41,165 nt of DNA from Bacillota bacterium (GTDB lineage Bacteria > Bacillota > DSM-12270 > Thermacetogeniales > Thermacetogeniaceae). The notes below the pieces were generated by a model. The model did no database searches, was not told where the DNA came from, and worked only from the letters and a program-made list of their open reading frames with translations. The DNA lies in contig JARYLU010000026.1 in assembly GCA_029907475.1 (NCBI GenBank), forward strand, positions 1-41,165, read 5' to 3'. A program made the position numbers and the translations under genes. Shown here piece by piece: positions 2,171-32,767 of the stretch; positions within the stretch are counted from its first letter, which is position 1, and every line of letters starts with the position of its first letter.

Positions 2171-4114
2171 TCAACCGGAGTACGGGAGCGAGCGCAAAGA
2201 TAAATCGGGACATATTTTCATGGCGGATGTAATGGTATTGCCGTTTTCATTCCGGGGCCGGAACGCGATCAGACGGACCGAGTTTAATACCACCAGCACG
2301 GACCCGAAGTTATGGACGACCGCCCCCGCAATCGGATTTAAGAAGCCTGATCCTGACCCGATCAAAGCCAGGGCGTTAAACACGACGGCAAAGGCAATGT
2401 TAAAGTTAATGGTGTTGATGGTGGCCTTGCCCAGGCGTAAAAGATACGGCAGCCTGGTAAGGTCGTCGTTCATCAGAGCGATGTCTGCCGCTTCCATGGC
2501 CACATCCGTCCCCATTGCTCCCATGGCAATGCCGATATCCGCCGCGGCCAGAGACGGAGCGTCGTTGATTCCGTCACCGACCATCGCCACTCTCTGGCCT
2601 TTGTCCTGGTATTCCTTGATCTGCTTCAGTTTTTGCTCCGGAAGGAGCCCGGCACGATACTCCATAATACCGCTTACCCCGGCAATATGAGCCGCCACCG
2701 CGTCATCATCTCCGGTTAACATCTGCACTTTTCTAATACCGGCCTCCTGCAGAGACTTGACCAGGGCGGGAACTTCCGGGCGCAGTATATCCTGAAGGTA
2801 GATGACACCAATAATGAAGCCGTTTTCTTTTACAACCAGGGCCTTTGTTCCTCTCTGCGGCTCCAATGCAATGAGTTTTTCCGGTTCTGACGCTTCACCC
2901 GGCATTGAACCGCCCACAAAGACACTTCTGCTATTTACCGATGCCTCTACGCCGATCCCAGGGAGGTTCTTAAACTTTTCGGGTTCCTCCAGCACTAACC
3001 CCCTTTGCTTAGCCGTATGCACAATGGCCCGGCCCAGAGGATGTTCAGAGTGTTTTTCCGCTGCGGCCGCTGTGGCAAGCACCTGCTCCTCGGAAGCGCC
3101 GTTCAGAGGCGTGATCGTGGTGACTACCGGCATCCCGGCAGTAAGGGTGCCGGTTTTGTCGAAGACCATCACGTCAACCCTGGCAACCTGCTCCAGGAAA
3201 GCGCCTCCTTTAATGAGAATGCCGTTGCGGGACGCGTTTCCCAGTGCCGCCACGACAGCCGTGGGAGCGGAAAGGATCAAGGCGCAAGGGCAGCCTACGA
3301 TAAGCACCGCAATGGCCCGGTGGATATCCCAGGTGAAAAGATACACTGCAGCACTGAGGCTCACAATAACCGGGGTAAAGTACCTGGCATAACGGTCCGC
3401 AATTCTAAGGATCGGGGCTTTCTGGCTTTCCGCGTCCTGCACCAGTTTGATTAACCTGCCCAGGGTCGTGGCCGCACCTACTTTCTGGGCTTCCACCACG
3501 ACCATGCCGGCATAACAGACCGACCCGGCGAAAACCGTATCTCCTGCCGTTTTTTCCACAGGCAGGCTTTCCCCGGTAAGGGAGGCTTCGTTAAAAGAAG
3601 CGTTGCCGTGGCTGACCTTACCGTCTACCGGAACCTTTTCTCCGGAACGAATGATGGCCCTGTCGCCCACCCGGATTTCCTCCACCGGAACGGAAACCTC
3701 GGCGCCGTCGCGCATGAGCGTGGCTTGCTCAGGGCTGAGCTGGATGAGGGCGTTAATGGCGGAACGGGATTTTTGGGCCATAAACTCCTCCAACAGCGAG
3801 CCCAAAACCATGATCAAAGCCACCACGGCAGCCTCCCCATACTCGCCGATGACCACTGAGGCGACGATGGCCAGGCTGACCAGTTCGTCTACGTTGAGTT
3901 CCCTGTTTAAAAGCCCCCTGGCGGCGCCGGTAACAATAGGTCCTCCCAGTATTACCAGGGCCAGCAACAACGACATGTCCGCCAGGAGCGGGTAAGCATT
4001 TTTGCCGAGCAAATAACCGGTCGCGATCAGCAAAACCCCTGCAAGAACCCTGGAGAATTCTTTCATTTGCAGCAATTCGCGGTACTTGTGAATGCCTGCA
4101 TACCTGCCAATCAC
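2171..4114 (-). CDS. Zn/Cd/Pb-type P1B ATPase (ZntA/CadA-like)
   Basis: A 647-residue heavy-metal-exporting P-type ATPase of the cytoplasmic membrane. Visible motifs: TGES actuator (about 180-183), CPC in the transport helix (275-277), DKTGT phosphorylation site (319-323), SEHPLG (about 356-361), [11 protein letters not shown] hinge and the C-terminal membrane motif HNFGSVLVVLNS, which I associate with the Zn2+/Cd2+ subgroup rather than the copper subgroup. There is no N-terminal HMA domain or cysteine/histidine tail, so it is a minimal form. Start GTG 4114 is fixed by AAAGGAGG eight bases upstream. It lies 30 bases downstream of the MarR-type regulator on the same strand, so both are probably one transcript. 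The exact metal is inferred. Confidence 0.9.
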   Translation of the reverse strand: MIGRYAGIHKYRELLQMKEFSRVLAGVLLIATGYLLGKNAYPLLADMSLLLALVILGGPIVTGAARGLLNRELNVDELVSLAIVASVVIGEYGEAAVVALIMVLGSLLEEFMAQKSRSAINALIQLSPEQATLMRDGAEVSVPVEEIRVGDRAIIRSGEKVPVDGKVSHGNASFNEASLTGESLPVEKTAGDTVFAGSVCYAGMVVVEAQKVGAATTLGRLIKLVQDAESQKAPILRIADRYARYFTPVIVSLSAAVYLFTWDIHRAIAVLIVGCPCALILSAPTAVVAALGNASRNGILIKGGAFLEQVARVDVMVFDKTGTLTAGMPVVTTITPLNGASEEQVLATAAAAEKHSEHPLGRAIVHTAKQRGLVLEEPEKFKNLPGIGVEASVNSRSVFVGGSMPGEASEPEKLIALEPQRGTKALVVKENGFIIGVIYLQDILRPEVPALVKSLQEAGIRKVQMLTGDDDAVAAHIAGVSGIMEYRAGLLPEQKLKQIKEYQDKGQRVAMVGDGINDAPSLAAADIGIAMGAMGTDVAMEAADIALMNDDLTRLPYLLRLGKATINTINFNIAFAVVFNALALIGSGSGFLNPIAGAVVHNFGSVLVVLNSVRLIAFRPRNENGNTITSAMKICPDLSLRSLPYSG

Positions 4115-4144: not shown

Positions 4145-4576
4145 CTAAAAGGTACCGGAATTTATCTTTTTGAGGATGGCCAGGAATTGCCTGATCTCAT
4201 CCTCGGAAAGGTTAGCGGCCATTTGTTCAGTCAAATGCAGGTGGTATTTGTGGTGTTCCTTAAAAGCGTCCTCTCCCTTCTCTGTTAAACTGATCAAGTT
4301 GACCCGCCTGTCTTCCCTGGTTGTTTCGCGCCGCGCGTAGTCCTTGTTCTCCAGCCTGTCCACCGTTACGGTGGTAGTCCCGGTGGTGACACCCAGCCTT
4401 TGCGCCAGGCTTTTCATATTCATTTTCCCGTGCTGTCCCAAAACCTCGATGGCGTGGGCCTCTGAAACCGTCAGGTCGCCGGCACGGATGACCGAGCTTT
4501 CCCAGGAGGCAAAACCGTTAAAAAAATGCAGCAGCTCGTCAGTCAACTCTTCAAGGATTTGTTCCATCGACTCCAT
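4145..4576 (-). CDS. MarR-family regulator, AdcR/ZitR-like zinc sensor candidate
   Basis: A 143-residue winged-helix protein. The DNA-binding part MKSLAQRLGVTTGTTTVTVDRLENKDY and the wing TREDRRVNLISLTEKG are typical of MarR. Start ATG 4576 is preferred because GAGAGGTGAT sits at ideal spacing; a GTG nine bases earlier would leave no ribosome binding site. Two positions match the zinc ligands of streptococcal AdcR and lactococcal ZitR: the histidine in LTVSEAHAIEVL and the EHxxxH motif (EHHKYH) in the fifth helix. The AdcR cysteine ligand is not obvious. Together with its place upstream of the Zn/Cd ATPase this suggests metal-responsive control; ligand and mode are inferred. Confidence 0.85.
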   Translation of the reverse strand: MESMEQILEELTDELLHFFNGFASWESSVIRAGDLTVSEAHAIEVLGQHGKMNMKSLAQRLGVTTGTTTVTVDRLENKDYARRETTREDRRVNLISLTEKGEDAFKEHHKYHLHLTEQMAANLSEDEIRQFLAILKKINSGTF

Positions 4577-4607
4577 AAACATCACCTCTCGTTAGATGTT
4601 ATTACTG

Positions 4608-4648
4608 TTTGATAATCAAATCATAGCATATGCAGGTTAGTTTAACAA
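4608..4648 (-). promoter_or_regulatory. Promoter and palindromic operator of the marR-ATPase operon
   Basis: On the minus strand TTGTTA (4648-4643), a 17-base spacer and TATGAT (4625-4620). Overlapping and directly downstream of the minus-10 is the palindrome TTTGATAATCAAA (4608-4620; reads TTTGATTATCAAA on the other strand), well placed as an autoregulatory MarR-type operator near the transcription start. Confidence 0.6.
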
Positions 4649-4690
4649 TCAAAATTTTAAGCCTTCGCTCACTAATCCTTTGAAATCTTC

Positions 4691-4719
4691 TTGACAAATA
4701 GGGTAGGGGGGTATACTAT
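4691..4719 (+). promoter_or_regulatory. CsoR-type operator overlapping the csoR-copA promoter
   Basis: TTGACA (4691-4696) is followed by TATACT (4712-4717, spacer 15) or TACTAT (4714-4719, spacer 17). The spacer contains ATAGGGTAGGGGGGTAT (4698-4714), whose complement ATACCCCCCTACCCTAT has the G/C-tract pseudo-palindrome known for CsoR operators. Apo-CsoR bound here would block RNA polymerase. Confidence 0.75.
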
Positions 4720-4742
4720 TTCCCTAAGGATGGTGAGGGACA

Positions 4743-5075
4743 ATGGACAAACTACAGGGAACAGATTGCCCAGGCTGTCAAACCGGGGGCAAGAAAGAAC
4801 GTACGATGCCGCACGACGACAAGACGATCAAGGAGCTTGTCAACCGCCTTAACCGCATTGAGGGGCAGCTGCGGGGCATCAGGGGGATGATTGAAAGACG
4901 CGTGTATTGCGATGATGTTCTGAATCAAATCGCGTCTGTAACCGCCGCTCTCCGGGGCGTGTCCAGGCTGTTACTGGAAAAGCACCTTAAGGCCTGTGTC
5001 AAGGAGCAGCTCCAGGCGGGTGATGACGAAGTGGTGGACGAGGTCCTCAATACGATATTCCGGATGATGAAGTAA
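4743..5075 (+). CDS. csoR: Copper-sensing repressor CsoR
   Basis: A 110-residue protein of the all-helical CsoR/RcnR family. Cu(I) ligands are visible as the cysteine of VYCDDVL and the His-x3-Cys of KHLKAC, the W-X-Y-Z pattern of true copper sensors. The family core starts around KTIKELVNRLNRIEGQLRGI. The 20-residue N-terminal extension contains an additional CPGC pair; a second ATG at 4806 would remove it, but the GGTGAGGG ribosome binding site precedes ATG 4743. It heads the rightward operon with copA, 26 bases upstream of it, and its own operator overlaps the promoter, so the pair is predicted to be induced by copper. Confidence 0.93.
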   Translation: MDKLQGTDCPGCQTGGKKERTMPHDDKTIKELVNRLNRIEGQLRGIRGMIERRVYCDDVLNQIASVTAALRGVSRLLLEKHLKACVKEQLQAGDDEVVDEVLNTIFRMMK

Positions 5076-5101
5076 GTTTAAGCTAGGGGGGGAGCGATCC
5101 A

Positions 5102-7522
5102 ATGGTCCAGCCGGCGGAAGTTGCGAAAGTCAATATAGCAAATCAGGAGAGGGAAACGCTAACCCTGCCTATTGCGGGGATGGCCTGCGCGGCTTGTTCA
5201 GCCAGGGTGGAAAAGGGGCTGAACAGAACGCCCGGCGTTTTGTCGGCTGCCGTCAACCTGGCCCTGCAAAAAGGAACTGTCATTTATGACCCAAGACAAA
5301 CCGCGCCCGGGGATATTATTGCCAGCATCCGCAACATGGGTTTTGATGTCCCGGTCGAAACTGTAGCACTCCTGATCTCCGGGATGTCCTGCGCAGCCTG
5401 CTCTGCCCGGGTGGAGAAGAGACTGAATGCTTTGCCCGGAGTAGAGGAAGCAGCCGTCAACCTGACCACCGGCAAAGCATACGTAAAACTCATTCCGGGC
5501 ATGATCACTGTTTCCGAAGTGCGGAAAGCGGTGGAGGCCCTGGGTTATCAGGCCCGCCGGGCAGCGGACGCCTCCATTGATGAGGAAGGAGCACAGCGGC
5601 AAAAAGAAATACGCCTGCAAATTGCCAGGTTTGTTCTTGCGGCTGTGCTCACCCTCCCCCTGGCCTGGATGATGCTGTCCCAGTTCGTCGGCTACCGGTT
5701 TATGCTTAGCCCATGGGCGCAACTGGTCTTGGTCACCCCCGTGCAGTTCGTTGCCGGCTGGCCGTTTTACCGCGGGGCTTTTCATTCCCTGAGAACCGGC
5801 GGCGCCAACATGGATGTACTGGTGGCGCTGGGCACTTCGGCAGCCTATTTTTACAGTTTGATTTCCCTGTTAGCTGGTTGGGATGTGTATTATTTCGAAT
5901 CGCCTGCCATGCTCATCACGCTAATTCTACTTGGGAAGCTCTTAGAAGCCGTGGCGAAAGGAAAAACGTCCGCAGCCATCAAGAGACTGATGGACCTGCA
6001 GGCCAAGACTGCCCGTGTCCTGCGTAACGGAGTGGAAGAGGATGTTCCCGTTGAGGAGGTCGAGGTCGGCGACATTGTTCTGGTACGGCCGGGAGAACGC
6101 ATCCCGGTGGACGGCACCATCCTGGAAGGCAGCTCCAGTGTGGATGAATCCATGCTCACCGGGGAAAGCCTGCCGGCGGAAAAACAACCGGGCGACGAGG
6201 TGGTAGGAGCCTCTCTAAACAAACAGGGAAGCTTCACTTTCAGGGCGACCAAAGTGGACAAGGATACCGCGCTGGCCCGAATCATCCGCCTGGTGGAAGA
6301 GGCCCAGGGCTCCAAGGCCCCCATCCAGCGCCTGGCGGACAAAGTCTCGGGCATCTTTGTACCCGTTGTCATAACCATCGCTTTACTTACTTTTGCCGGC
6401 TGGTACTTGGCCGGGGCCGGTTTCGCAGCAGCACTAATGCACATGGTTACGGTCCTGGTTATTGCCTGCCCGTGCGCGCTGGGCCTGGCGACCCCCACCG
6501 CGATCATGGTGGGAACAGGTGTTGGTGCTGAAAAGGGCATCCTGATCAGAGGGGGAGAGCATCTCGAACAAGCAGGCAAGGTTGATACCGTTGTTTTAGA
6601 CAAAACGGGAACCATTACCGTAGGGGCGCCCTCCGTAACAGATTGCCTGGCCCTGTCTCCCTTTGAAGAGAAAGAACTGCTGGCAATCATCGCCCCGGCC
6701 GAGAAGCGATCTGAACACCCCCTGGGTGAAGCAATTGTCCGGCGAGCCGGGGAACTTAATGCGCCGGAAAAAGAAATCAGCCACTTCGAGGCCCTCCCCG
6801 GACAGGGAATTCGTTTCCGCGTAGGAGACGAACTCTGGCACGTGGGCAATGAAGCCCTGGCCAAGTCTCAAGGGATAGATTTGTCCCCGGTACTGGCCCG
6901 GAAGAACCGCTGGGAAGAAGAAGGAAAGACCGTCATGATCGCCACAGCGGGTAAGACGCTGGCGGGATTGATCGCTGTGGCGGACACCGTGAAAGAGCAC
7001 GCGAAGGAGACAATTACCCAACTCCGGCAAATGGGACTTGAAGTTTACATGTTGACGGGAGACCAGCGGCAAACGGCGCGGGCCATAGCCCGGCAGGTCG
7101 GCATCAGCAATGTTCTTGCCGAAGTCCTGCCTGACAGAAAGGCGCAGGAAATCCAAAAACTTAAAAACACAGGCAAGGTGGTGGCCATGGTCGGTGACGG
7201 CATTAATGATGCGCCGGCACTGGCCACCGCACACGTGGGAATGGCCATCGGAACAGGGACCGACGTGGCCATGGAAAGCGCCTCCATCACCCTCATCCGC
7301 GGTGATCTGAGGGCCATTGTGTACGCCATCCGGCTGTCGCGCCAAACACTAAGCAAAATCCGGCAAAACCTTTTTTGGGCCTTTATCTATAACCTGATCG
7401 GCATCCCGCTGGCCATCTCCGGAGTGTTCACCCCCATCATGGGCGGTACAGCCATGGCCTTCAGCTCGGTATCGGTAGTAACCAATTCCCTGCTCTTAAA
7501 ACGCTACGACCCCGAACACTAG
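5102..7522 (+). CDS. copA: Copper-exporting P1B-1 ATPase CopA
   Basis: An 806-residue Cu+ efflux pump of the cytoplasmic membrane. Two N-terminal HMA metal-binding domains carry GMACAAC (C29, C32) and GMSCAAC (C97, C100); then come eight predicted membrane helices, the actuator TGES, the ion-binding CPC (456-458) in [12 protein letters not shown], the phosphorylation site DKTGT (D500), SEHPLG and [11 protein letters not shown]. The last helices contain YN and MxxSS ([13 protein letters not shown]), the signature of the copper subgroup. Start ATG 5102 follows GGGGGGGAG. It is co-transcribed with csoR. Length and domain order are normal. Confidence 0.96.
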
Positions 7523-10816: not shown

Positions 10817-11800
10817 TCACTCCAGGATATATACCTTCACCCGGCGGTGCCCCCATTTCCGGCAGTCCGCCTCGGATTCAAAGAAAAGATCGATCCTGTT
10901 TCCTTTGATCGCGCCCCCGACGTCAAGGGCTCTGGCAAAACCGTAGCCTTCCACATAAAGCCGTGTCCCCAGCGGGATGATGCTGGGGTCAACGGCCACC
11001 ACCCCGTACTGCACGGGGTATCCGGTTGCCGTGTACTTCCCGGCCGACGGGCTATAAGCCGTGGCGTGAGCTTCAAGCACGCGCTGGAATCGAATTACAG
11101 AACCTCCCCGCGCCACCGTCCCCACCGTGCCGTAAGCAATAATCCGGTTTCGCGGGGGACGGAGCACCCTTTCCTCGAGAACCGTTCTTTTGATCTCCCG
11201 CCCGTCTTCATAAGTAACTTTAATGGTCCGCTCCCCCTCACCCGCTTCTCCGGCCCTGACGAGACGCAGCCTGCCCCGCTCCATCTGAGGATCGGGTCTT
11301 CTCTCTTCAGCGAACGGGAGGGAGTAGTTTTCCCTGAATATTTTTTCGCTCACCCTGGTTACCCTGACAACGGTATTTTTCGTTACAGTTGCCGTTAAGG
11401 GAAGACTTACCCGGTCTTGAGGCCCCAGCTTAATGCTTGCCAGCGCGAGCACTCTTCCAACCGGGGTTGGAGGCGTTAAAACAACCCTGGTCTGGCCGTC
11501 GGCGAAAACGCGCACCGGCACTGCCCGGTTCACTGTAACCTGCATGCCTCTTTTCACCGGTGTCGCGAGATCTGGAGATACCGCGTCCCGGGGGCCCACT
11601 TCCACCCCGGCCTCGGCCAGGGCGCCTCCCAAGGTGCGCTGCAGGGTCCTGTGTTCCACCACTTTACCGTCGATTTTGATCACGATCTTCTGCTGAGCGC
11701 CGGCGATCGTCCCCCACGCAAGGCCTCCGACGAGGCAGGAAACCAGTGCAGCACGGCCCGGAATAGAGTTTGACCATCCCCTCCGGATAAGTTTAAGCAT
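10817..11800 (-). CDS. YabE-like G5 and 3D domain protein (copy 1)
   Basis: A 327-residue exported or membrane-anchored protein. An N-terminal hydrophobic segment (AALVSCLVGGLAWGTIAGA) is followed by two DUF348-type repeats (VIKIDGKVVEHRTLQRTLGGALAEAGV; VRVFADGQTRVVLTPPTPVGRVLALA), a G5 domain (about 150-220) and a C-terminal 3D domain with ATAYSPSAGKYTATG, VAVDPSIIPLGTRLYVEGYG and ALDVGGAIKGNRIDLFF, including the three conserved aspartates. 3D domains are related to MltA-type lytic enzymes, and Bacillus YabE-like proteins resemble Rpf resuscitation factors; a cell-wall remodelling role is inferred. Start ATG 11800 follows GGGGGTAACGGG. Confidence 0.9.
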   Translation of the reverse strand: MLKLIRRGWSNSIPGRAALVSCLVGGLAWGTIAGAQQKIVIKIDGKVVEHRTLQRTLGGALAEAGVEVGPRDAVSPDLATPVKRGMQVTVNRAVPVRVFADGQTRVVLTPPTPVGRVLALASIKLGPQDRVSLPLTATVTKNTVVRVTRVSEKIFRENYSLPFAEERRPDPQMERGRLRLVRAGEAGEGERTIKVTYEDGREIKRTVLEERVLRPPRNRIIAYGTVGTVARGGSVIRFQRVLEAHATAYSPSAGKYTATGYPVQYGVVAVDPSIIPLGTRLYVEGYGFARALDVGGAIKGNRIDLFFESEADCRKWGHRRVKVYILE

Positions 11801-11996
11801 CCCGTTACCCCCTTTTCCCAGCCGGTTCCTGATTCTTAGTTCCTTTCTTTTCCAAACATCTTTCTTTAATTCTAAAATGTGTCATGGTAAGAAAAAACCG
11901 CGCTTATATTATATTCCACGCGGGGTGAAAATTTCCTCTTTATTTATCATTTAAAATCTTGAGGCCTGGTGAAGCCCGCCCCTTTCTTGCCCCGGT

Positions 11997-12986
11997 TTAT
12001 TCGAGGACGTAAACATCGACCTCGCGCTTTCCGAAGGCGAAACATTCCGCCTCGGTGTCAAAAAAGAGATCGATCCGGTTCCCCTTGATTAAGCCGCCGG
12101 TGTCCACCGCACGGGCAGGTCCGTAGCCCTCAACATATAACCTGGAGCCCAGCGGAATCACGTCGGGGTCTACCGCAACCCCTCCCACATAGGGCCAGAC
12201 TCCGGTTGCGGTTGGACTTCCGGTATGAGTGTAAGCGGTCGCGGTCATCTTGAGGACGCGCCTGGCCTCAGCCACAGGAGCCTCCCCGCGCGAGGCGGAG
12301 CGTTGTGCCGCCGATGAGTTCTGGGCGCCGTAGGCAATCACCCGGGGTTCAGGTTCCCGGAGCACCTCGGTCCCAAGTTCTTTCCTTGCTACCTCAACCC
12401 CGTTCTCAGTAGTAATCTCGGCCTTTTTCAAAAGAACCCCGGGCCGTCCCGGGGAGCGCACCTCGGTTTTTCCCGGGGTCAGGCGAGCATCCCGGACCCG
12501 CCGCACCGGGTAAGGGATCGACTCCTCCTCTGTAACAATCCGGCAGCGAACTCTGATTACATCGATTTCGGGGATTGCTTTATCTCCGGTCACGAGTCTG
12601 GCCTCGGCCCGGTCCCTGGCGCCCAACTCAATCCCGGCCCCCGCGAGAATCTTTTCAAGGGGGGGCAGGGGGGCGCGCGTCACAACGGTCGTGCCATCTA
12701 CCTGCACCTTCACAGGAGTATCTTCGAAAGTCTGAAGGGACAGTCCTGCTCCCTTCGTGTAGGTGATGCCGATTTGAACTACCCGGCGCGCCTCAGAAAG
12801 CGCCGGCCTGCCGAAAAAATCCTGCCAGAAAGCTGCGACTGCCGCAGGAACCTGCGCGCCAACGCTGCTTCCCTGAAGCAACAGGAAACCTAAAGCCAGG
12901 GCGGCAACACCGCTCCAGAAAGCCTTCCGCCGGAACCTCTTTTGCTTTTTCCCTACATCCAGAATCAAGATTTCGAGCTTCGTCAC
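11997..12986 (-). CDS. YabE-like G5 and 3D domain protein (copy 2)
   Basis: A 329-residue paralogue upstream of copy 1. It has an N-terminal cytoplasmic basic stretch, a hydrophobic segment (FWSGVAALALGFLLLQGSSVGA), a single clear DUF348-like repeat (VQVDGTTVVTRAPLPPLEKILAGAGIE), a G5 domain (about 150-215), and a 3D domain with MTATAYTHTGSPTATG, VAVDPDVIPLGSRLYVEGYG and AVDTGGLIKGNRIDLFFDTE. A linker rich in Ser/Ala separates G5 and 3D. Start GTG 12986 follows GGGGAGGG. The 3D domains of the two copies are close while the N-terminal parts differ, suggesting an old tandem duplication with specialisation. Confidence 0.9.
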   Translation of the reverse strand: MTKLEILILDVGKKQKRFRRKAFWSGVAALALGFLLLQGSSVGAQVPAAVAAFWQDFFGRPALSEARRVVQIGITYTKGAGLSLQTFEDTPVKVQVDGTTVVTRAPLPPLEKILAGAGIELGARDRAEARLVTGDKAIPEIDVIRVRCRIVTEEESIPYPVRRVRDARLTPGKTEVRSPGRPGVLLKKAEITTENGVEVARKELGTEVLREPEPRVIAYGAQNSSAAQRSASRGEAPVAEARRVLKMTATAYTHTGSPTATGVWPYVGGVAVDPDVIPLGSRLYVEGYGPARAVDTGGLIKGNRIDLFFDTEAECFAFGKREVDVYVLE

Positions 12987-27552: not shown

Positions 27553-28302
27553 CTATTCCTCCTTGCCACCGGGCACTTTCAGCTCGCCAGGCGGAAAATA
27601 TTTCGGCATCGTCTCCTCGAGAAACCCCCAGGTCTGCTCGGCATCGGTTCGCCAGTTCGTCGGGCAGGTTGAAAGAACTTCGACAAAAGAGAAGCCGCGC
27701 CCTGCCATCTGGTTCTCGATGGCTTTTCTCAGGCAGTTCTTCAGCTGCCGGAAACGGCCCACGCTCCCTCTTGCTACATAAGCCCCTGCGTGGGAAATCG
27801 CCGCCACCATTTCGGGGCCCAGCATGGGAGAGCCGGTTTCCTCGACATCTCTCCCATACGGGGTGGTTTCGGTTTTCTGGCCCGGTACCGTGGTGGGAGC
27901 CATCTGCCCCCCCGTCATGGCGTAGGTGGTGTTGTTGACCAGGATGCAGGTGATCAGGTCGTTGCGGGTGGCCGCGTTCACCAGGTGCTGGGAACCGATG
28001 GCATACCCTCCCCCGTCCCCCATATAAGCAACAGTGAGGAGTTCGGGCCGGGCGCGCTTGATTCCGACCATCACCGGAGTCGTCCTGCCGTGGTGGGTCT
28101 GGACGGTATCCACGTTAAAGAAATCCCAGGCCAAAAGGGAGCAGCCGATATCGCACCCGAAAACGAGGCGGTCCTGGACCCCCAGCTCATCTATCGCCTG
28201 GCCCAGCGCCTTTAAAACAAGGCCGTGCCCGCAGCCGGGACAAAATTTATGGGGCTTCGTGGCCGGATTCCAGCTCTTTGGCATTTTCGGTAAAATTTCC
28301 AC
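27553..28302 (-). CDS. 2-oxoacid:ferredoxin oxidoreductase, beta subunit
   Basis: A 249-residue thiamine diphosphate-binding subunit. CPGCGHG (about 21-27) supplies cysteines of the proximal [4Fe-4S] cluster together with FGCDIGCS; the ThDP motif is GDGGGYAIGSQHLVNAATRNDL...LVNNTTYAMTGGQ. Start GTG 28302 lies three bases after the alpha stop. TTVPGQKTETTPYGRD is typical of KorB/VorA-like proteins. It catalyses reversible oxidative decarboxylation of a 2-oxoacid to acyl-CoA with ferredoxin. Confidence 0.92.
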   Translation of the reverse strand: MEILPKMPKSWNPATKPHKFCPGCGHGLVLKALGQAIDELGVQDRLVFGCDIGCSLLAWDFFNVDTVQTHHGRTTPVMVGIKRARPELLTVAYMGDGGGYAIGSQHLVNAATRNDLITCILVNNTTYAMTGGQMAPTTVPGQKTETTPYGRDVEETGSPMLGPEMVAAISHAGAYVARGSVGRFRQLKNCLRKAIENQMAGRGFSFVEVLSTCPTNWRTDAEQTWGFLEETMPKYFPPGELKVPGGKEE

Positions 28303-28305
28303 GGC

Positions 28306-29409
28306 TCACCCTTCCTTTCCCGCCAGGAGGGCCCTGCATTTCTCGGCTACCTCTTCCGGGGTGATTCCCACTCCCGGGCGGAACAGCGTTCGGACCGGTA
28401 CACCGGACCCGTAAAGATTTTCCAGCACGAGCTTGTTTAACTGGCCGTACGCCGACTCTACCACCAGCAGTTGCTCTGCGCCCTGCGCCGCCTCCCGCAA
28501 CTGCGCCCCGGGAAAGGGGCGAAGCGTGATCGGGCGGAAATACCCGACCCTCTCCCCCTGATTTACCAGTTCCCTGACGGCCATCGCCACCGAGCGGAAA
28601 ACAATCCCGTGGGCGACCACCAAAAGGCCGGCTTCCCCGGCGTTAAAGGCATCTGCCTCGACAATTTCGGGAGCCGCCGCCTCGTATTCCTCAATATCCT
28701 TCCCCAGAGCGGCCAGGAGTTCTTCTTCGACGCTGAAGGCATTGCGCAGGTGGGCGGGAGGCCGGTCGGTTCCGGGCATTCCCGGCTTACCGACCAGCGG
28801 TTCGGACGGGACCATCTCGATCCCGCGTTCCGCGGGATCGTAAATCACCAGCGACTCCCGCATTTTTGCCTGGTAGCCGTCGGCCAGCACAAAGGTCGGA
28901 AAGCGGTATTTCCACGCCGCATTAAAAGCCTTGACGGTGTAGTCGAAGAGTTCCTGGTGGAAAGCCGTCGAGTAAACAAGCCGCAGTCCCTCTCCGTTGC
29001 CCCCGAAACAGGTCAGGGTTACCTCCTGCTGGGAGTAAATCACCGTTGCGGTCGAGGGGCCGCCCCGCTGCTGGACGACAACGACAACAGGAATCCGCAT
29101 CGCCTCCGCCATCGAAAGCGGCTCCTGCATGAGCACATTACCCGGGCCCGCGGTCGCCGTAAAGGCCCGCTTCCCGGCAAGAACCCCTCCGATCGTGGTA
29201 AATCCTGCCGACAGTTCATCTTCGGTTTGCAAGAATTTTTTTCCGAACCTGGGACCGAGCCGCGTCCAGTAGTGCATAATCTCGTTCTGAGGGGTGATGG
29301 GATACCCGTACATGATCTCAGCCCCGGCGGCAAGCGCTCCCCAGGCCACCACCTCGTTGCCGGTCATAAAGGTTTTCCTGGACCCCTCAACCGGTTTCGC
29401 GCCATTCAA
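28306..29409 (-). CDS. 2-oxoacid:ferredoxin oxidoreductase, alpha subunit
   Basis: A 367-residue pyrimidine/transketolase-type subunit. Conserved: GNEVVAWGALAAGAEIMYGYPITPQNEI, TEDELSAGFTTIGGVLAGKRAFTATAGPG, VVVVQQRGGPSTATVIYSQQEV, and in the C-terminal transketolase domain YFRPITLRPFPGAQL. The start is TTG 29409, preceded by GGGAGGTG and a T-run. It heads the kor operon. No ferredoxin-like delta subunit is encoded in this operon, unlike the por operon. Confidence 0.92.
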   Translation of the reverse strand: MNGAKPVEGSRKTFMTGNEVVAWGALAAGAEIMYGYPITPQNEIMHYWTRLGPRFGKKFLQTEDELSAGFTTIGGVLAGKRAFTATAGPGNVLMQEPLSMAEAMRIPVVVVVQQRGGPSTATVIYSQQEVTLTCFGGNGEGLRLVYSTAFHQELFDYTVKAFNAAWKYRFPTFVLADGYQAKMRESLVIYDPAERGIEMVPSEPLVGKPGMPGTDRPPAHLRNAFSVEEELLAALGKDIEEYEAAAPEIVEADAFNAGEAGLLVVAHGIVFRSVAMAVRELVNQGERVGYFRPITLRPFPGAQLREAAQGAEQLLVVESAYGQLNKLVLENLYGSGVPVRTLFRPGVGITPEEVAEKCRALLAGKEG

Positions 29410-29480
29410 AAAAAAACACCTCCCGGGAAAATAACCCCTCTCTCAGTTTTTCCCGGGCCCTGCTCTTTTCATTCACGCCC

Positions 29481-29508
29481 CTTATAAACTTTGAACAAAC
29501 TTTAGCAA
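29481..29508 (-). promoter_or_regulatory. Candidate promoter of the kor operon
   Basis: On the minus strand TTGCTA (29508-29503), a 16-base spacer and TATAAG (29486-29481), about 70 bases before the alpha start. Confidence 0.5.
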
Positions 29509-29599
29509 CCTGGCCTAAGAAGCGATTTTGCCACCTGTCTGGCCGGTAGCCGGAAGTCCAGGTTATATAGTGATAACGGCCTGAATCGTGCACAAATCA

Positions 29600-29625
29600 A
29601 GAGGCCCCGGATGAGCCGGGGCCCC
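29600..29625 (-). terminator. Hairpin between the por and kor operons
   Basis: Perfect 8-bp stem GGCCCCGG / CCGGGGCC (29603-29610, 29616-29623) with a 5-base loop, about 45 bases after the porB stop. On the minus strand it is followed by TCTTGATTTGT, a poor T-run, so termination may be partial. Confidence 0.6.
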
Positions 29626-29665
29626 TGGATACTTTATTATAGTGCAAGGAATAACCGTCTGCCGC

Positions 29666-30595
29666 TCAGCTTTTCCCGGCCAACTTGAGGAGGCGGTTCC
29701 AGCGCCGGTCGGTCTCCGCCTGCAGTTCCTCGATCAGGTGCTCGTTTCCCGGCCGGAAGAAGTGCTCAAAGCGGCCCTGGGGCTTCAGGTACTCGGTTAC
29801 AGGTAGTTTGTTTTTGGGGATGTAGTTAACCGTCCACTTTTCCCCCTGCTCTTCCACCTCGTAAAGGGGGAAGACGCAGGCCTCTGTAGCAAGCCGCGCG
29901 ATCTCGATGGTTTCTGAGGCAGGGTAGCGCCAGCCGCGCGGGCAGGGGGACTGGATGTTGATGAAAGAGGGTCCCTGGTGGTTCAGGGCCTTTTCCACTT
30001 TCCGCATGAGATCCCGCCACCTGTGGGGTGAGGCGTTTGCGGCATACGCCCCGTGCGCGGCGGCGATGCGAATCATGTCTTTCTGGTGCTGCTGTTTCCC
30101 TTTCTGGGCCTCGCCCACATGGCTCGTTGTGGTCCAGGCCCCAAAGGGGGTAGAGCCTGAACGCTGGATCCCGGTGTTCATGTAGGCGCCGTTGTCGTAG
30201 CAGATGTACAGGCACCTGTGGCCGCGCTCGAGCATTCCCGAGATCGCCTGGAGGCCGATATCGTAGGTGCCGCCGTCCCCCCCGACGGCAATGAGGCTGA
30301 TCTCCTGGTCTGCCAGCCTGCCTTTTCTCTTCAGGGCGCGGATGGCTCCCTCAACACCCGAGGCGACGGCAGCTGCGTTTTCGAAGGCAGAGTGGTAGTA
30401 AGGGATGCGCCACGAGGAGTAGGGGATGATTGCTGTTGTGATGTAGAGGCAGCCGGTGGCGTTGACGATAACCGGGCAGTGGGGCGCAGCCAGCAGGACC
30501 TGCCTGACGATGATCGGGGCGGCGCACCCGGCGCAGGTGCGCGTACCGCCGGTGATTTTTGCTTCTCTCGTGCTCAGTTCTTTTAAAGTGGCCAT
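29666..30595 (-). CDS. porB: Pyruvate:ferredoxin oxidoreductase, beta subunit
   Basis: A 309-residue ThDP-binding subunit. N-terminal RTCAGCAAPIIVRQ gives two cysteines of the cluster, with further cysteines in VNATGCLY and later CPRGWRYP; the ThDP motif is GGDGGTYDIGLQAISGMLERGHRCLYICYDNGAYMNTGIQRS, and the conserved STPFGAWTT follows. These are typical of four-subunit PorB. ATG 30595 is adjacent to the porA stop (TAGATG). Catalyses pyruvate to acetyl-CoA, CO2 and reduced ferredoxin, or the reverse in acetogens. Confidence 0.93.
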   Translation of the reverse strand: MATLKELSTREAKITGGTRTCAGCAAPIIVRQVLLAAPHCPVIVNATGCLYITTAIIPYSSWRIPYYHSAFENAAAVASGVEGAIRALKRKGRLADQEISLIAVGGDGGTYDIGLQAISGMLERGHRCLYICYDNGAYMNTGIQRSGSTPFGAWTTTSHVGEAQKGKQQHQKDMIRIAAAHGAYAANASPHRWRDLMRKVEKALNHQGPSFINIQSPCPRGWRYPASETIEIARLATEACVFPLYEVEEQGEKWTVNYIPKNKLPVTEYLKPQGRFEHFFRPGNEHLIEELQAETDRRWNRLLKLAGKS

Positions 30596-31795
30596 CTATT
30601 GCCACCCCCTCAGATCCAGGTAGTTGAGAATTCTGTCAATCCGCCCGGTTTCCGCGATTTGCTGCAGGTGGTTGTAAATCCTGGTGATGCTCTTGGGCGG
30701 GACATCCCGGCCGCCCAGGCCGGCGACGTAGCTGATCAGGCTGGCCTTTACGCCTTGATGGTAGAGGGCCCCGAGTACGTCAGAGAAGAGGGCGGGCCCC
30801 GGCGCACCCGGCGAGATGGCCTTCTCCAGGACGGCGGCTGCTTTCACGTTTTTCAGGGCGGCTGCCACGGCTTCGACGGGGAAGGGGCGAAAGAGTTTGA
30901 TTTTCAGCGATCCGGCCCTGATTCCTTCTTCCCGGAGCCTGTCGACGACAAACCTGGTCGTCCCGGCCAGGGAGCCCAGGGTGATGACCGCCACTTCTGC
31001 GTCATCGATCCGGTAGGCTTCGACGATACCGTAGCCCCGGCCGAACTTTGTCCCGAATTCCTGGTCGACTGCCGCGACCTTTTCCAGGGCGCGGTCAAGG
31101 GCGTATGACTGGGCATACCTGTGCTCGAAGTAGTACTCGGGCATGGCGGCCGCGCCCAGGGTAATGGGTTTGGTGAGATCGAGGAGGTTGGTGCGCGGCC
31201 TGAATTCCCCGATGAAGTCCTTGACCTCGGTGTCGGAGAGGAGCTCAAGGCGCTCCATGCTGTGGCTCAGGATGAATCCGTCCAGGCAGACCATCACCGG
31301 CAGCTGGACTTCGGGGTGTTCGGCAATCCGGATGCCTTGAATTGTGGTGTCGTAGACCTCCTGGACGCTTTCGCAGTAGAGTTGAATCCAGCCGGCGTCG
31401 CGCGAGCCGAAGGTGTCGCTCTGGTCGTTGTGAATGTTTAAGGGCGCCGAAAGGGCGCGGTTGACGTTGATCATGACGATGGGGAGGCGGTTGGCCGCCG
31501 TAATGTAGAGCATTTCGTGCATGAGGGCGAGGCCCTGGGAAGAGGTGGCGGTCATGGTGCGCGCCCCGGCGGCGGAAGAACCGCAGCAGGCGCTGATGGC
31601 GCTGTGCTCACTCTCCACGCAGATGAATTCTGTGTTCACCAGGCCCTCGGCAACGTACTCGGCGAATTTCTCCACAATTTCGGTCTGCGGGGTAATGGGG
31701 TAGGCCGCCACCACATCCGGATCGATCTGGCGCATCGCCTCGGCGGCAGCGCCGTCACCCGTCAGGCCGACTACTTTTCGCGTTAAGAGCTTCAC
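30596..31795 (-). CDS. porA: Pyruvate:ferredoxin oxidoreductase, alpha subunit
   Basis: A 399-residue alpha subunit. Motifs: LTGDGAAAEAMRQIDPDVVAAYPITPQTEIVEKFAEYV, FICVESEHSAISACCGSSAAGARTMTATSSQGLALMHEMLY, NVNRALSAPLNIHNDQSDTFGSRDAGWIQLYCES and MVCLDGFILSHSMERLE. GTG 31795 is used: earlier codons would overlap the ferredoxin gene, whose stop lies five bases upstream. Length is normal for PorA (about 390-400). Confidence 0.92.
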   Translation of the reverse strand: MKLLTRKVVGLTGDGAAAEAMRQIDPDVVAAYPITPQTEIVEKFAEYVAEGLVNTEFICVESEHSAISACCGSSAAGARTMTATSSQGLALMHEMLYITAANRLPIVMINVNRALSAPLNIHNDQSDTFGSRDAGWIQLYCESVQEVYDTTIQGIRIAEHPEVQLPVMVCLDGFILSHSMERLELLSDTEVKDFIGEFRPRTNLLDLTKPITLGAAAMPEYYFEHRYAQSYALDRALEKVAAVDQEFGTKFGRGYGIVEAYRIDDAEVAVITLGSLAGTTRFVVDRLREEGIRAGSLKIKLFRPFPVEAVAAALKNVKAAAVLEKAISPGAPGPALFSDVLGALYHQGVKASLISYVAGLGGRDVPPKSITRIYNHLQQIAETGRIDRILNYLDLRGWQ

Positions 31796-31799
31796 TTCC

Positions 31800-32129
31800 T
31801 CACTCTCCCTCCTTAAGAGGCCCGGCGCCCTCGGCCATCTTGATGGCCTCCTGCGGGCATTCGGTGCTGCAAATTCCGCAGCCTTTGCATAGAGACTCGT
31901 CAAATCCGGCCATCTTGCCGTCTTTTACCCGGATTGCGGAGTCGGGACAGTAGATCCAGCAAAAGAGGCAAGAGGTGCATTTTTCCGGATCGAGGACTGG
32001 GTGCTGGCTGCGCCAGCCTCCGGTTTTGAAATCGTCGGAACCCTCGGAAAGAAGCGCCCACCCCAGGGGTATTTCGTCCCAGGCGGGGAGCTTCGCTTTA
32101 TCGAGCTTCCTGATGGAGTCATCTTTCAT
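31800..32129 (-). CDS. porD: Pyruvate:ferredoxin oxidoreductase, ferredoxin-like delta subunit
   Basis: A 109-residue protein with two [4Fe-4S] motifs: CTSCLFCWIYCP (C51-C61) and CKGCGICSTECP (C81-C91). The N-terminal 45 residues (AWDEIPLGWALLSEGSDDFKTGGWRSQ HP) are the usual delta-subunit extension that contacts the other subunits. The ATG overlaps the porC stop (ATGA), so translation is coupled. It passes electrons from the ThDP site cluster to external ferredoxin. Confidence 0.94.
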   Translation of the reverse strand: MKDDSIRKLDKAKLPAWDEIPLGWALLSEGSDDFKTGGWRSQHPVLDPEKCTSCLFCWIYCPDSAIRVKDGKMAGFDESLCKGCGICSTECPQEAIKMAEGAGPLKEGE

Positions 32130-32692
32130 GCTTCCCGGACCTCCTCGTAAGCCCGCCTGATGGCGTTGAGATTTTGCCGGATCAGTTCCGGTTTAAAGCG
32201 CTGGGAAAACTGCTCTTCGAACTCAGAAAGGACGCTTTCCAGGCTGATCAGCCCTGTGACCTTGACCAGGGCTCCTGCCATCGGGGTATTGGGCATCACC
32301 CGCCCCAGTTCTTCGCGCGAGATCCGGTCGGCGTCTACTGCGAAGACTCTGCGCTGCGTACCGTTTTTCAGTTCTTGGGGAATGCCGGTGTGGTTCACGA
32401 TAGAAGTTCCGCCTGTTTTGAGGTTCTGGGTGACCTTAACAACTCCGAGAAGGCTGGGATCAAGGACGACAACGACATCGGGTTCTTCGATGGCACAGTG
32501 CAGGTTGATGGGTTCGTTGCTGATGCGGGTGAAGGCTACCACAGGCGCGCCCAATCTTTCGGGGCCGAAAAACGGGAAGGCCTGAAAGTAGAGGTTTTCT
32601 CTGATGGCTGAAGAAGCCAGAAAGCGGGAGGCCAGAACAACTCCCTGGCCGCCACGGCCATGCCACCTGATCTCAAGCATTTTACTCGACAA
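32126..32692 (-). CDS. porC: Pyruvate:ferredoxin oxidoreductase, gamma subunit
   Basis: A 188-residue gamma subunit beginning at TTG 32692 with GAGAGGGGGG eight bases upstream (ATG 32680 is an alternative four codons on). RWHGRGGQGVVLASRFLASSAI is the family N-terminus; FPFFGPERLGAPVVAFTRIS and TPMAGALVKVTGLISLE are conserved. Order porC-porD-porA-porB is the common four-subunit arrangement. Confidence 0.92.
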   Translation of the reverse strand: MSSKMLEIRWHGRGGQGVVLASRFLASSAIRENLYFQAFPFFGPERLGAPVVAFTRISNEPINLHCAIEEPDVVVVLDPSLLGVVKVTQNLKTGGTSIVNHTGIPQELKNGTQRRVFAVDADRISREELGRVMPNTPMAGALVKVTGLISLESVLSEFEEQFSQRFKPELIRQNLNAIRRAYEEVREA

Positions 32693-32767
32693 ATTCTTTA
32701 CCCCCCTCTCCCACTTTTTGCTTTTTTTTCTTTCGGAAACCCCGTAAGAGCTCCCGGAAATCACGTT

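Follow-up and report, generated by a model that had tools for sequence, protein, structure and literature searches.

The question raised by this locus is what a MarR-type regulator senses when it carries residues known from AdcR and ZitR, which govern zinc uptake, and is followed by a metal-exporting ATPase. The window (the whole stretch of DNA analysed, 41,165 nucleotides) encodes the two genes on the same strand, with the ATPase 30 nt downstream of marR. The regulator may be a local, self-regulating metal-efflux repressor of the marR-ATPase operon with Zn(II) or Cd(II) as its inducer, a reading to which a probability of roughly 0.6 is given. The span 4145-4648, singled out in the preliminary description, consists of the marR gene and its predicted promoter. 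The two genes of the operon are as follows.

4145 to 4585, minus strand: FabT-like MarR regulator, 146 amino acids counted from the GTG at 4585
2171 to 4114, minus strand: P1B-type heavy-metal ATPase with CPC and HN motifs, P1B6-like and resembling CtpC of M. tuberculosis

The product of the ORF at 4145-4585 on the minus strand is a MarR protein (Pfam MarR_2, 5.6e-12; MarR, 5.9e-12), and its translation likely starts at the ATG at 4576-4574 behind GAGAGGTG. It belongs to the FabT-like superclade of MarR, with FabT a closer relative than AdcR and the other MarR proteins, because model scores, the best solved relative and profile comparison all favor FabT. It scores 86.6 bits (1.8e-24) with the FabT model NF050133 and 33.2 bits (5.4e-8) with the AdcR model NF038251, which places it under both curated cut-offs (200 bits for the FabT equivalog and 175 bits for AdcR/ZitR). 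The closest solved relative by sequence is FabT of S. pneumoniae (6jbx, 6e-14), which is likewise the top Foldseek match for the predicted structure, and profile comparison returned the FabT set at 99.9% and 2.3e-33 and AdcR at 9e-10. The VIA-align list for the AF2 model mixes all MarR subfamilies without discriminating among them. The tree is compatible with FabT kinship; its deeper order is unsettled, and AdcR sits on a long branch. A clade of 39 orthologues (support 98/92; 60-96% identity) includes Peptococcaceae-like lineages, Desulfosporosinus, Anaerosolibacter, Anaerovirgula, Sporomusa, Pelosinus, and others. The nearest of them (L005, 96%) comes from a MAG labelled Armatimonadetes (HOT.MB2.58); its contig is probably from a misbinned or misnamed Bacillota, or else reflects a recent transfer.

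The regulator contains LTVSEAHAIEVL and EHHKYH. In AdcR, zinc site 1 is formed by E24, H42, H108, and H112. A profile alignment, with no gaps nearby, pairs H44 with AdcR H42, E110 with E107, H111 with H108, and H115 with H112, and the histidine and EHxxxH motif that the preliminary description had assigned to these AdcR residues therefore do fall on the AdcR metal site. A MAFFT multiple alignment adds E29, which pairs with the fourth ligand E24 and had gone unmentioned. By sequence alignment, all four site-1 ligands thus have counterparts in E29/H44/H111/H115. Of AdcR site 2 (C30, E41, and E107), E107 alone has a counterpart, E110; E41 pairs with A43, and the regulator contains no cysteine, so there is no C30 equivalent. 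AdcR membership was rejected because of these absent site-2 ligands together with the score (33.2 against 175 bits). The codons of the putative metal site are listed below.

4499 to 4501, minus strand: E29 (counterpart of AdcR E24), invariant in the clade; the AF2 loop that holds it is of low confidence
4454 to 4456, minus strand: H44 (aligns with AdcR H42), invariant in the clade
4250 to 4258, minus strand: E110-H111-H112 (AdcR E107-H108-H109), E110 and H112 specific to the metal clade and H111 common to FabT
4241 to 4243, minus strand: H115 (AdcR H112), with no variation in the clade or in FabT

E29, H44, E110, H111, and H115 are invariant across 33 aligned clade orthologues with identity down to about 60%. 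The AF2 model has a pLDDT of 86, with the E29 loop below 50. One orthologue (L034:541-1017) carries a tandem 13-residue duplication (WESSVIRASDLTV) in this loop, which gives it two candidate E29 ligands.

Among 22 FabT-like proteins (6jbx and 21 more), 20 carry the same E/H/H/H set; two have Q at the E29 position, and all 22 have the three histidines. Many of the carriers adjoin fabH, acyl carrier protein, fabK, accB/accC, or degV genes. The three-histidine set was found in none of 29 other MarR proteins sampled from Bacillota genomes, the thirtieth protein drawn and sole carrier being a member of the metal clade. The set is far above chance and, on these alignments, is a mark common to FabT-like proteins and AdcR, not to zinc-uptake regulators alone. 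It had earlier been taken to mark the AdcR/ZitR type, an assignment that the scores and the presence of the set in FabT-type regulators of fatty-acid loci do not support. Because E/H/H/H also occurs in these FabT-type proteins next to fatty-acid genes, the residues by themselves do not predict zinc sensing. The H105Y substitution in S. pyogenes FabT weakens repression, and H105 may be one of the histidines of the set.

This distribution bears on an alternative that is unlikely: the regulator would still repress metal efflux, with E/H/H/H as a structural network inherited from FabT and the inducer bound elsewhere (for example, through E17, E110, and H112), or with another metal-stress signal. 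The retention of the set in FabT-type proteins, many beside lipid genes, speaks for an inherited network, and E17, W28, E110, and H112, which are conserved and clade-specific relative to FabT, speak for a second site. However, a purely structural role is at odds with the lack of the three histidines in the other MarR proteins sampled and with the coincidence of the set's positions with the proven AdcR zinc site.

For the preferred reading, in which the regulator represses its own operon, the promoter region contains a plausible operator.

4620 to 4648, minus strand: predicted marR promoter, TTGTTA-17-TATGAT with an extended -10 (TG), a consensus match only
4608 to 4620, no strand assigned: putative operator, a perfect 13-bp palindrome whose minus-strand sequence, TTTGATTATCAAA, is identical to the core of the FabT consensus ANTTTGATTATCAAATT

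The palindrome TTTGATAATCAAA is exact at 4608-4620. In the promoter scan, its first base is the last base of the predicted -10, and it spans the start region. Overlap with the start region is the classic position of a repressor. The earlier observation that the palindrome differs from the AdcR box is borne out, its core being that of the published FabT consensus, which is the one used in S. pyogenes. The box TTTGANNNTCAAA was found in all 40 orthologue promoters, no more than 200 nt from the regulator gene, without mismatch in 22 loci and with one mismatch in 18. With at most one mismatch, it occurs in 1.5% of same-locus control stretches and about 2% of shuffled promoters; several FabT-type loci with fatty-acid genes carry the same box. 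The pattern TTTGATNATCAAA has one further site only in the whole 3.0 Mb genome, inside an apparent phenylalanyl-tRNA synthetase gene. A wider genomic regulon was considered and rejected: the remaining TTTGANNNTCAAAY matches are internal to ORFs, and none of them marks an evident fatty-acid operon. Because these other matches sit inside ORFs, the regulator likely works at a single local operator.

The gene behind the regulator varies within the clade. A metal exporter is the next gene on the same strand in 35 of the 38 readable loci, and the 40 loci divide as follows.

28 of 40 loci: CPC-type P1B ATPase
3 of 40 loci: SPC-type P1B ATPase (L020, L022, L051)
4 of 40 loci: CDF exporter, zinc-type (L024, L027, L030, L034)
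2 of 40 loci: FeoB_C/Gate protein (L052, L053)
1 of 40 loci: no transporter beside the regulator (L028)
2 of 40 loci: contig end before the next gene (L013, L035), hence 38 readable loci

The number of distinct loci is slightly under 40, as the regulators are identical in two locus pairs (L004/L021 and L015/L048). Partner type changed at least four times on the regulator tree. Because the regulator is constant while unrelated metal exporters are swapped behind it, it most likely senses what the exchanged exporters have in common. Outside the clade, 21 FabT-like loci gave no match to exporters of the clade's partner kinds. A fab gene was not seen adjoining the clade loci whose neighbours were read, and a zinc-uptake partner is absent as a rule, with only L035 divergent from znuACB among clade loci. 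The proposal that this protein regulates metal export is strongly supported by the recurrence of exporters of several types next to it in many genera.

Several loci depart from the common pattern. At L035:1505-5333, a Pelotomaculum MAG contig, 922 nt separate the regulator from the divergent znuACB; this regulator carries W28R and H112N, and its sequence is incomplete at the end of the contig. At L052:1930-3219 and L053:1970-3280, the gene after the regulator encodes a FeoB_C and Gate protein that lacks a GTPase domain and is possibly a metal transporter. The ATPase partner at L017:5571-6659 has an internal deletion that takes out the CPC and DKTG motifs, which probably leaves an intact regulator in front of a non-functional pump, or else is an assembly error.

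The same surroundings weigh on the reading of the regulator as FabT proper, which would sense acyl-ACP or fatty acid and control the exporter as part of membrane homeostasis. FabT is its closest characterised family and has an identical DNA box, and no better FabT was found in the source genome. Yet its score lies far below the FabT cut-off, unrelated exporter families take the place of fatty-acid genes at the clade loci, and the relaxed box matches elsewhere in the genome lead to no fatty-acid operon, all of which makes this reading quite improbable.

For a metal-responsive repressor of efflux, the partners offer the best indication of the metal. Canonical P1B-2 ATPases carry CPC in the transmembrane region and D-x-G near the C-terminus. 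The ATPase in the window has CPC, but close to its C-terminus it has the HN motif (HN-F-GS) in place of D-x-G. It lacks a heavy-metal-binding domain, and the candidate identity as a canonical ZntA/CadA protein was dropped. The preliminary description of a zinc/cadmium efflux ATPase thus stands as far as a P1B metal ATPase is concerned and falls short for the canonical ZntA/CadA type. The CDF partners have the HxxxD pair, which marks zinc-type CDFs. M. tuberculosis CtpC is a P1B6-like ATPase for which zinc export has been reported and manganese also proposed (PMC9374683). Because the CDF partners are of the zinc type and the ATPase shares the CPC/HN features of CtpC, a reported zinc exporter, the best guess for the common substrate class is Zn/Cd; the sensed metal could also be Co, Fe, or Mn.

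In the proposed mechanism, a metal-free FabT-like dimer would bind the palindrome that overlaps the -10 end and the transcription start, repressing its own gene and the exporter behind it. Rising Zn(II), or Cd(II), would then bind E29/H44/H111/H115, and perhaps also E110 and H112, which are specific to the clade; the metal-loaded repressor would leave the DNA and allow the exporter to be made. We infer apo repression from the operator position; that the regulator binds metal directly, that this metal is zinc, and that binding relieves repression instead of causing it are likewise deduced. Read from sequence are the residues and their alignment, the operator, the common orientation of the two genes, and the conservation of the arrangement across exchanges of exporter type. 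In AdcR and FabT, DNA binding is strengthened by the ligand; since the partner here exports, the allosteric sign would be reversed. Several points run against this mechanism: the set is also present in FabT-type regulators of fatty-acid loci and need not be a metal site, C30 and E41 have no counterparts, the model has low confidence in the E29 loop, the sign has to be reversed, L028 has no exporter, and L052/L053 have the FeoB_C/Gate protein. The opposite regulatory use to AdcR/ZitR, as originally suggested, is nonetheless the best reading of the alignment and the tie to exporters.

An AdcR/ZitR-type co-repressor, in which the metal-bound regulator represses the ATPase operon, would agree with the ligand alignment; it is very improbable, given the low AdcR score, the far closer FabT profile, and the physiological senselessness of an exporter repressed by its own substrate. 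A copper regulator acting with the divergent csoR-copA operon, which begins at 4743 on the opposite strand, 158 nt away, and has csoR/copA relatives near L008 and L010, is scarcely credible, as csoR/copA were not seen near the other loci of the same neighbourhood survey, CsoR already handles copper, and CDF partners are not known to export copper.

The csoR-copA operon spans 4690-7522 and encodes a CopA with two heavy-metal-binding domains; its csoR promoter (TTGACA-17-TACTAT) overlaps a G tract (GGGTAGGGGGGTATAC) resembling a CsoR operator. Elsewhere in the window are two adjacent sets of 2-oxoacid:ferredoxin oxidoreductase-like subunits (27553-32764) and two tandem RpfB/YabE-like proteins (10817-12986) that resemble each other and have a 3D-type C-terminus.

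Reviews name AdcR for zinc uptake and ArsR and MerR proteins for zinc export, and Zur has also been described as controlling zinc export in Streptomyces. A literature search, with most subscription journals outside its coverage, found no MarR regulator of zinc efflux and no report of the clade. As far as found, a metal-efflux role for a FabT-family protein is previously unreported, and the clade is a candidate MarR metalloregulator that is related to FabT and dedicated to efflux. With at least three kinds of metal exporter as its conserved companions, such a MarR clade would bring a further protein family into the set of metal-excess sensors and offer a clean natural case of identical ligand positions with opposite allosteric sign. 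It also raises the question of why a lipid regulator retains four residues that bind zinc in AdcR. One speculative and rather doubtful answer is that the FabT-AdcR branch of MarR keeps a single ancestral E/H/H/H metal constellation, with which this clade senses metal excess and opens export and AdcR closes uptake, and that FabT too is a metalloprotein, so far unrecognised, whose regulation of lipid genes would either depend on metal status or report it.

Among known systems, FabT (S. pneumoniae 6jbx and E. faecalis), best known as a controller of fatty-acid genes in lactic acid bacteria, is the best family and structure match, shares E/H/H/H and the box TTTGATTATCAAA, and also heads an operon thought to be under its own control. 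Unlike FabT, the regulator belongs to a separate clade (about 28-40% identity) with the additional conserved residues E17, W28, E110, and H112, a loop between E29 and helix 2 that is three residues shorter, and metal exporters rather than fab genes as partners. CzrA/SmtB (ArsR) and ZntR (MerR) resemble it in raising export upon sensing zinc excess, but their protein families are unrelated to the regulator. LdtR is a MarR protein released from DNA by Zn, and PefR is a haem-sensing MarR repressor of haem efflux; they show that a ligand can release a MarR protein from DNA and that a MarR sensor of a metal compound can control efflux, though their ligand residues and targets are different. AdcR and ZitR share the four aligned site-1 ligands (E24, H42, H108, and H112) and E107, whereas they form another family by score, have C30 and E41, and use a different box. 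They govern zinc uptake (adcABC/znuABC), while the clade partner exports, which would need the opposite allosteric sign.
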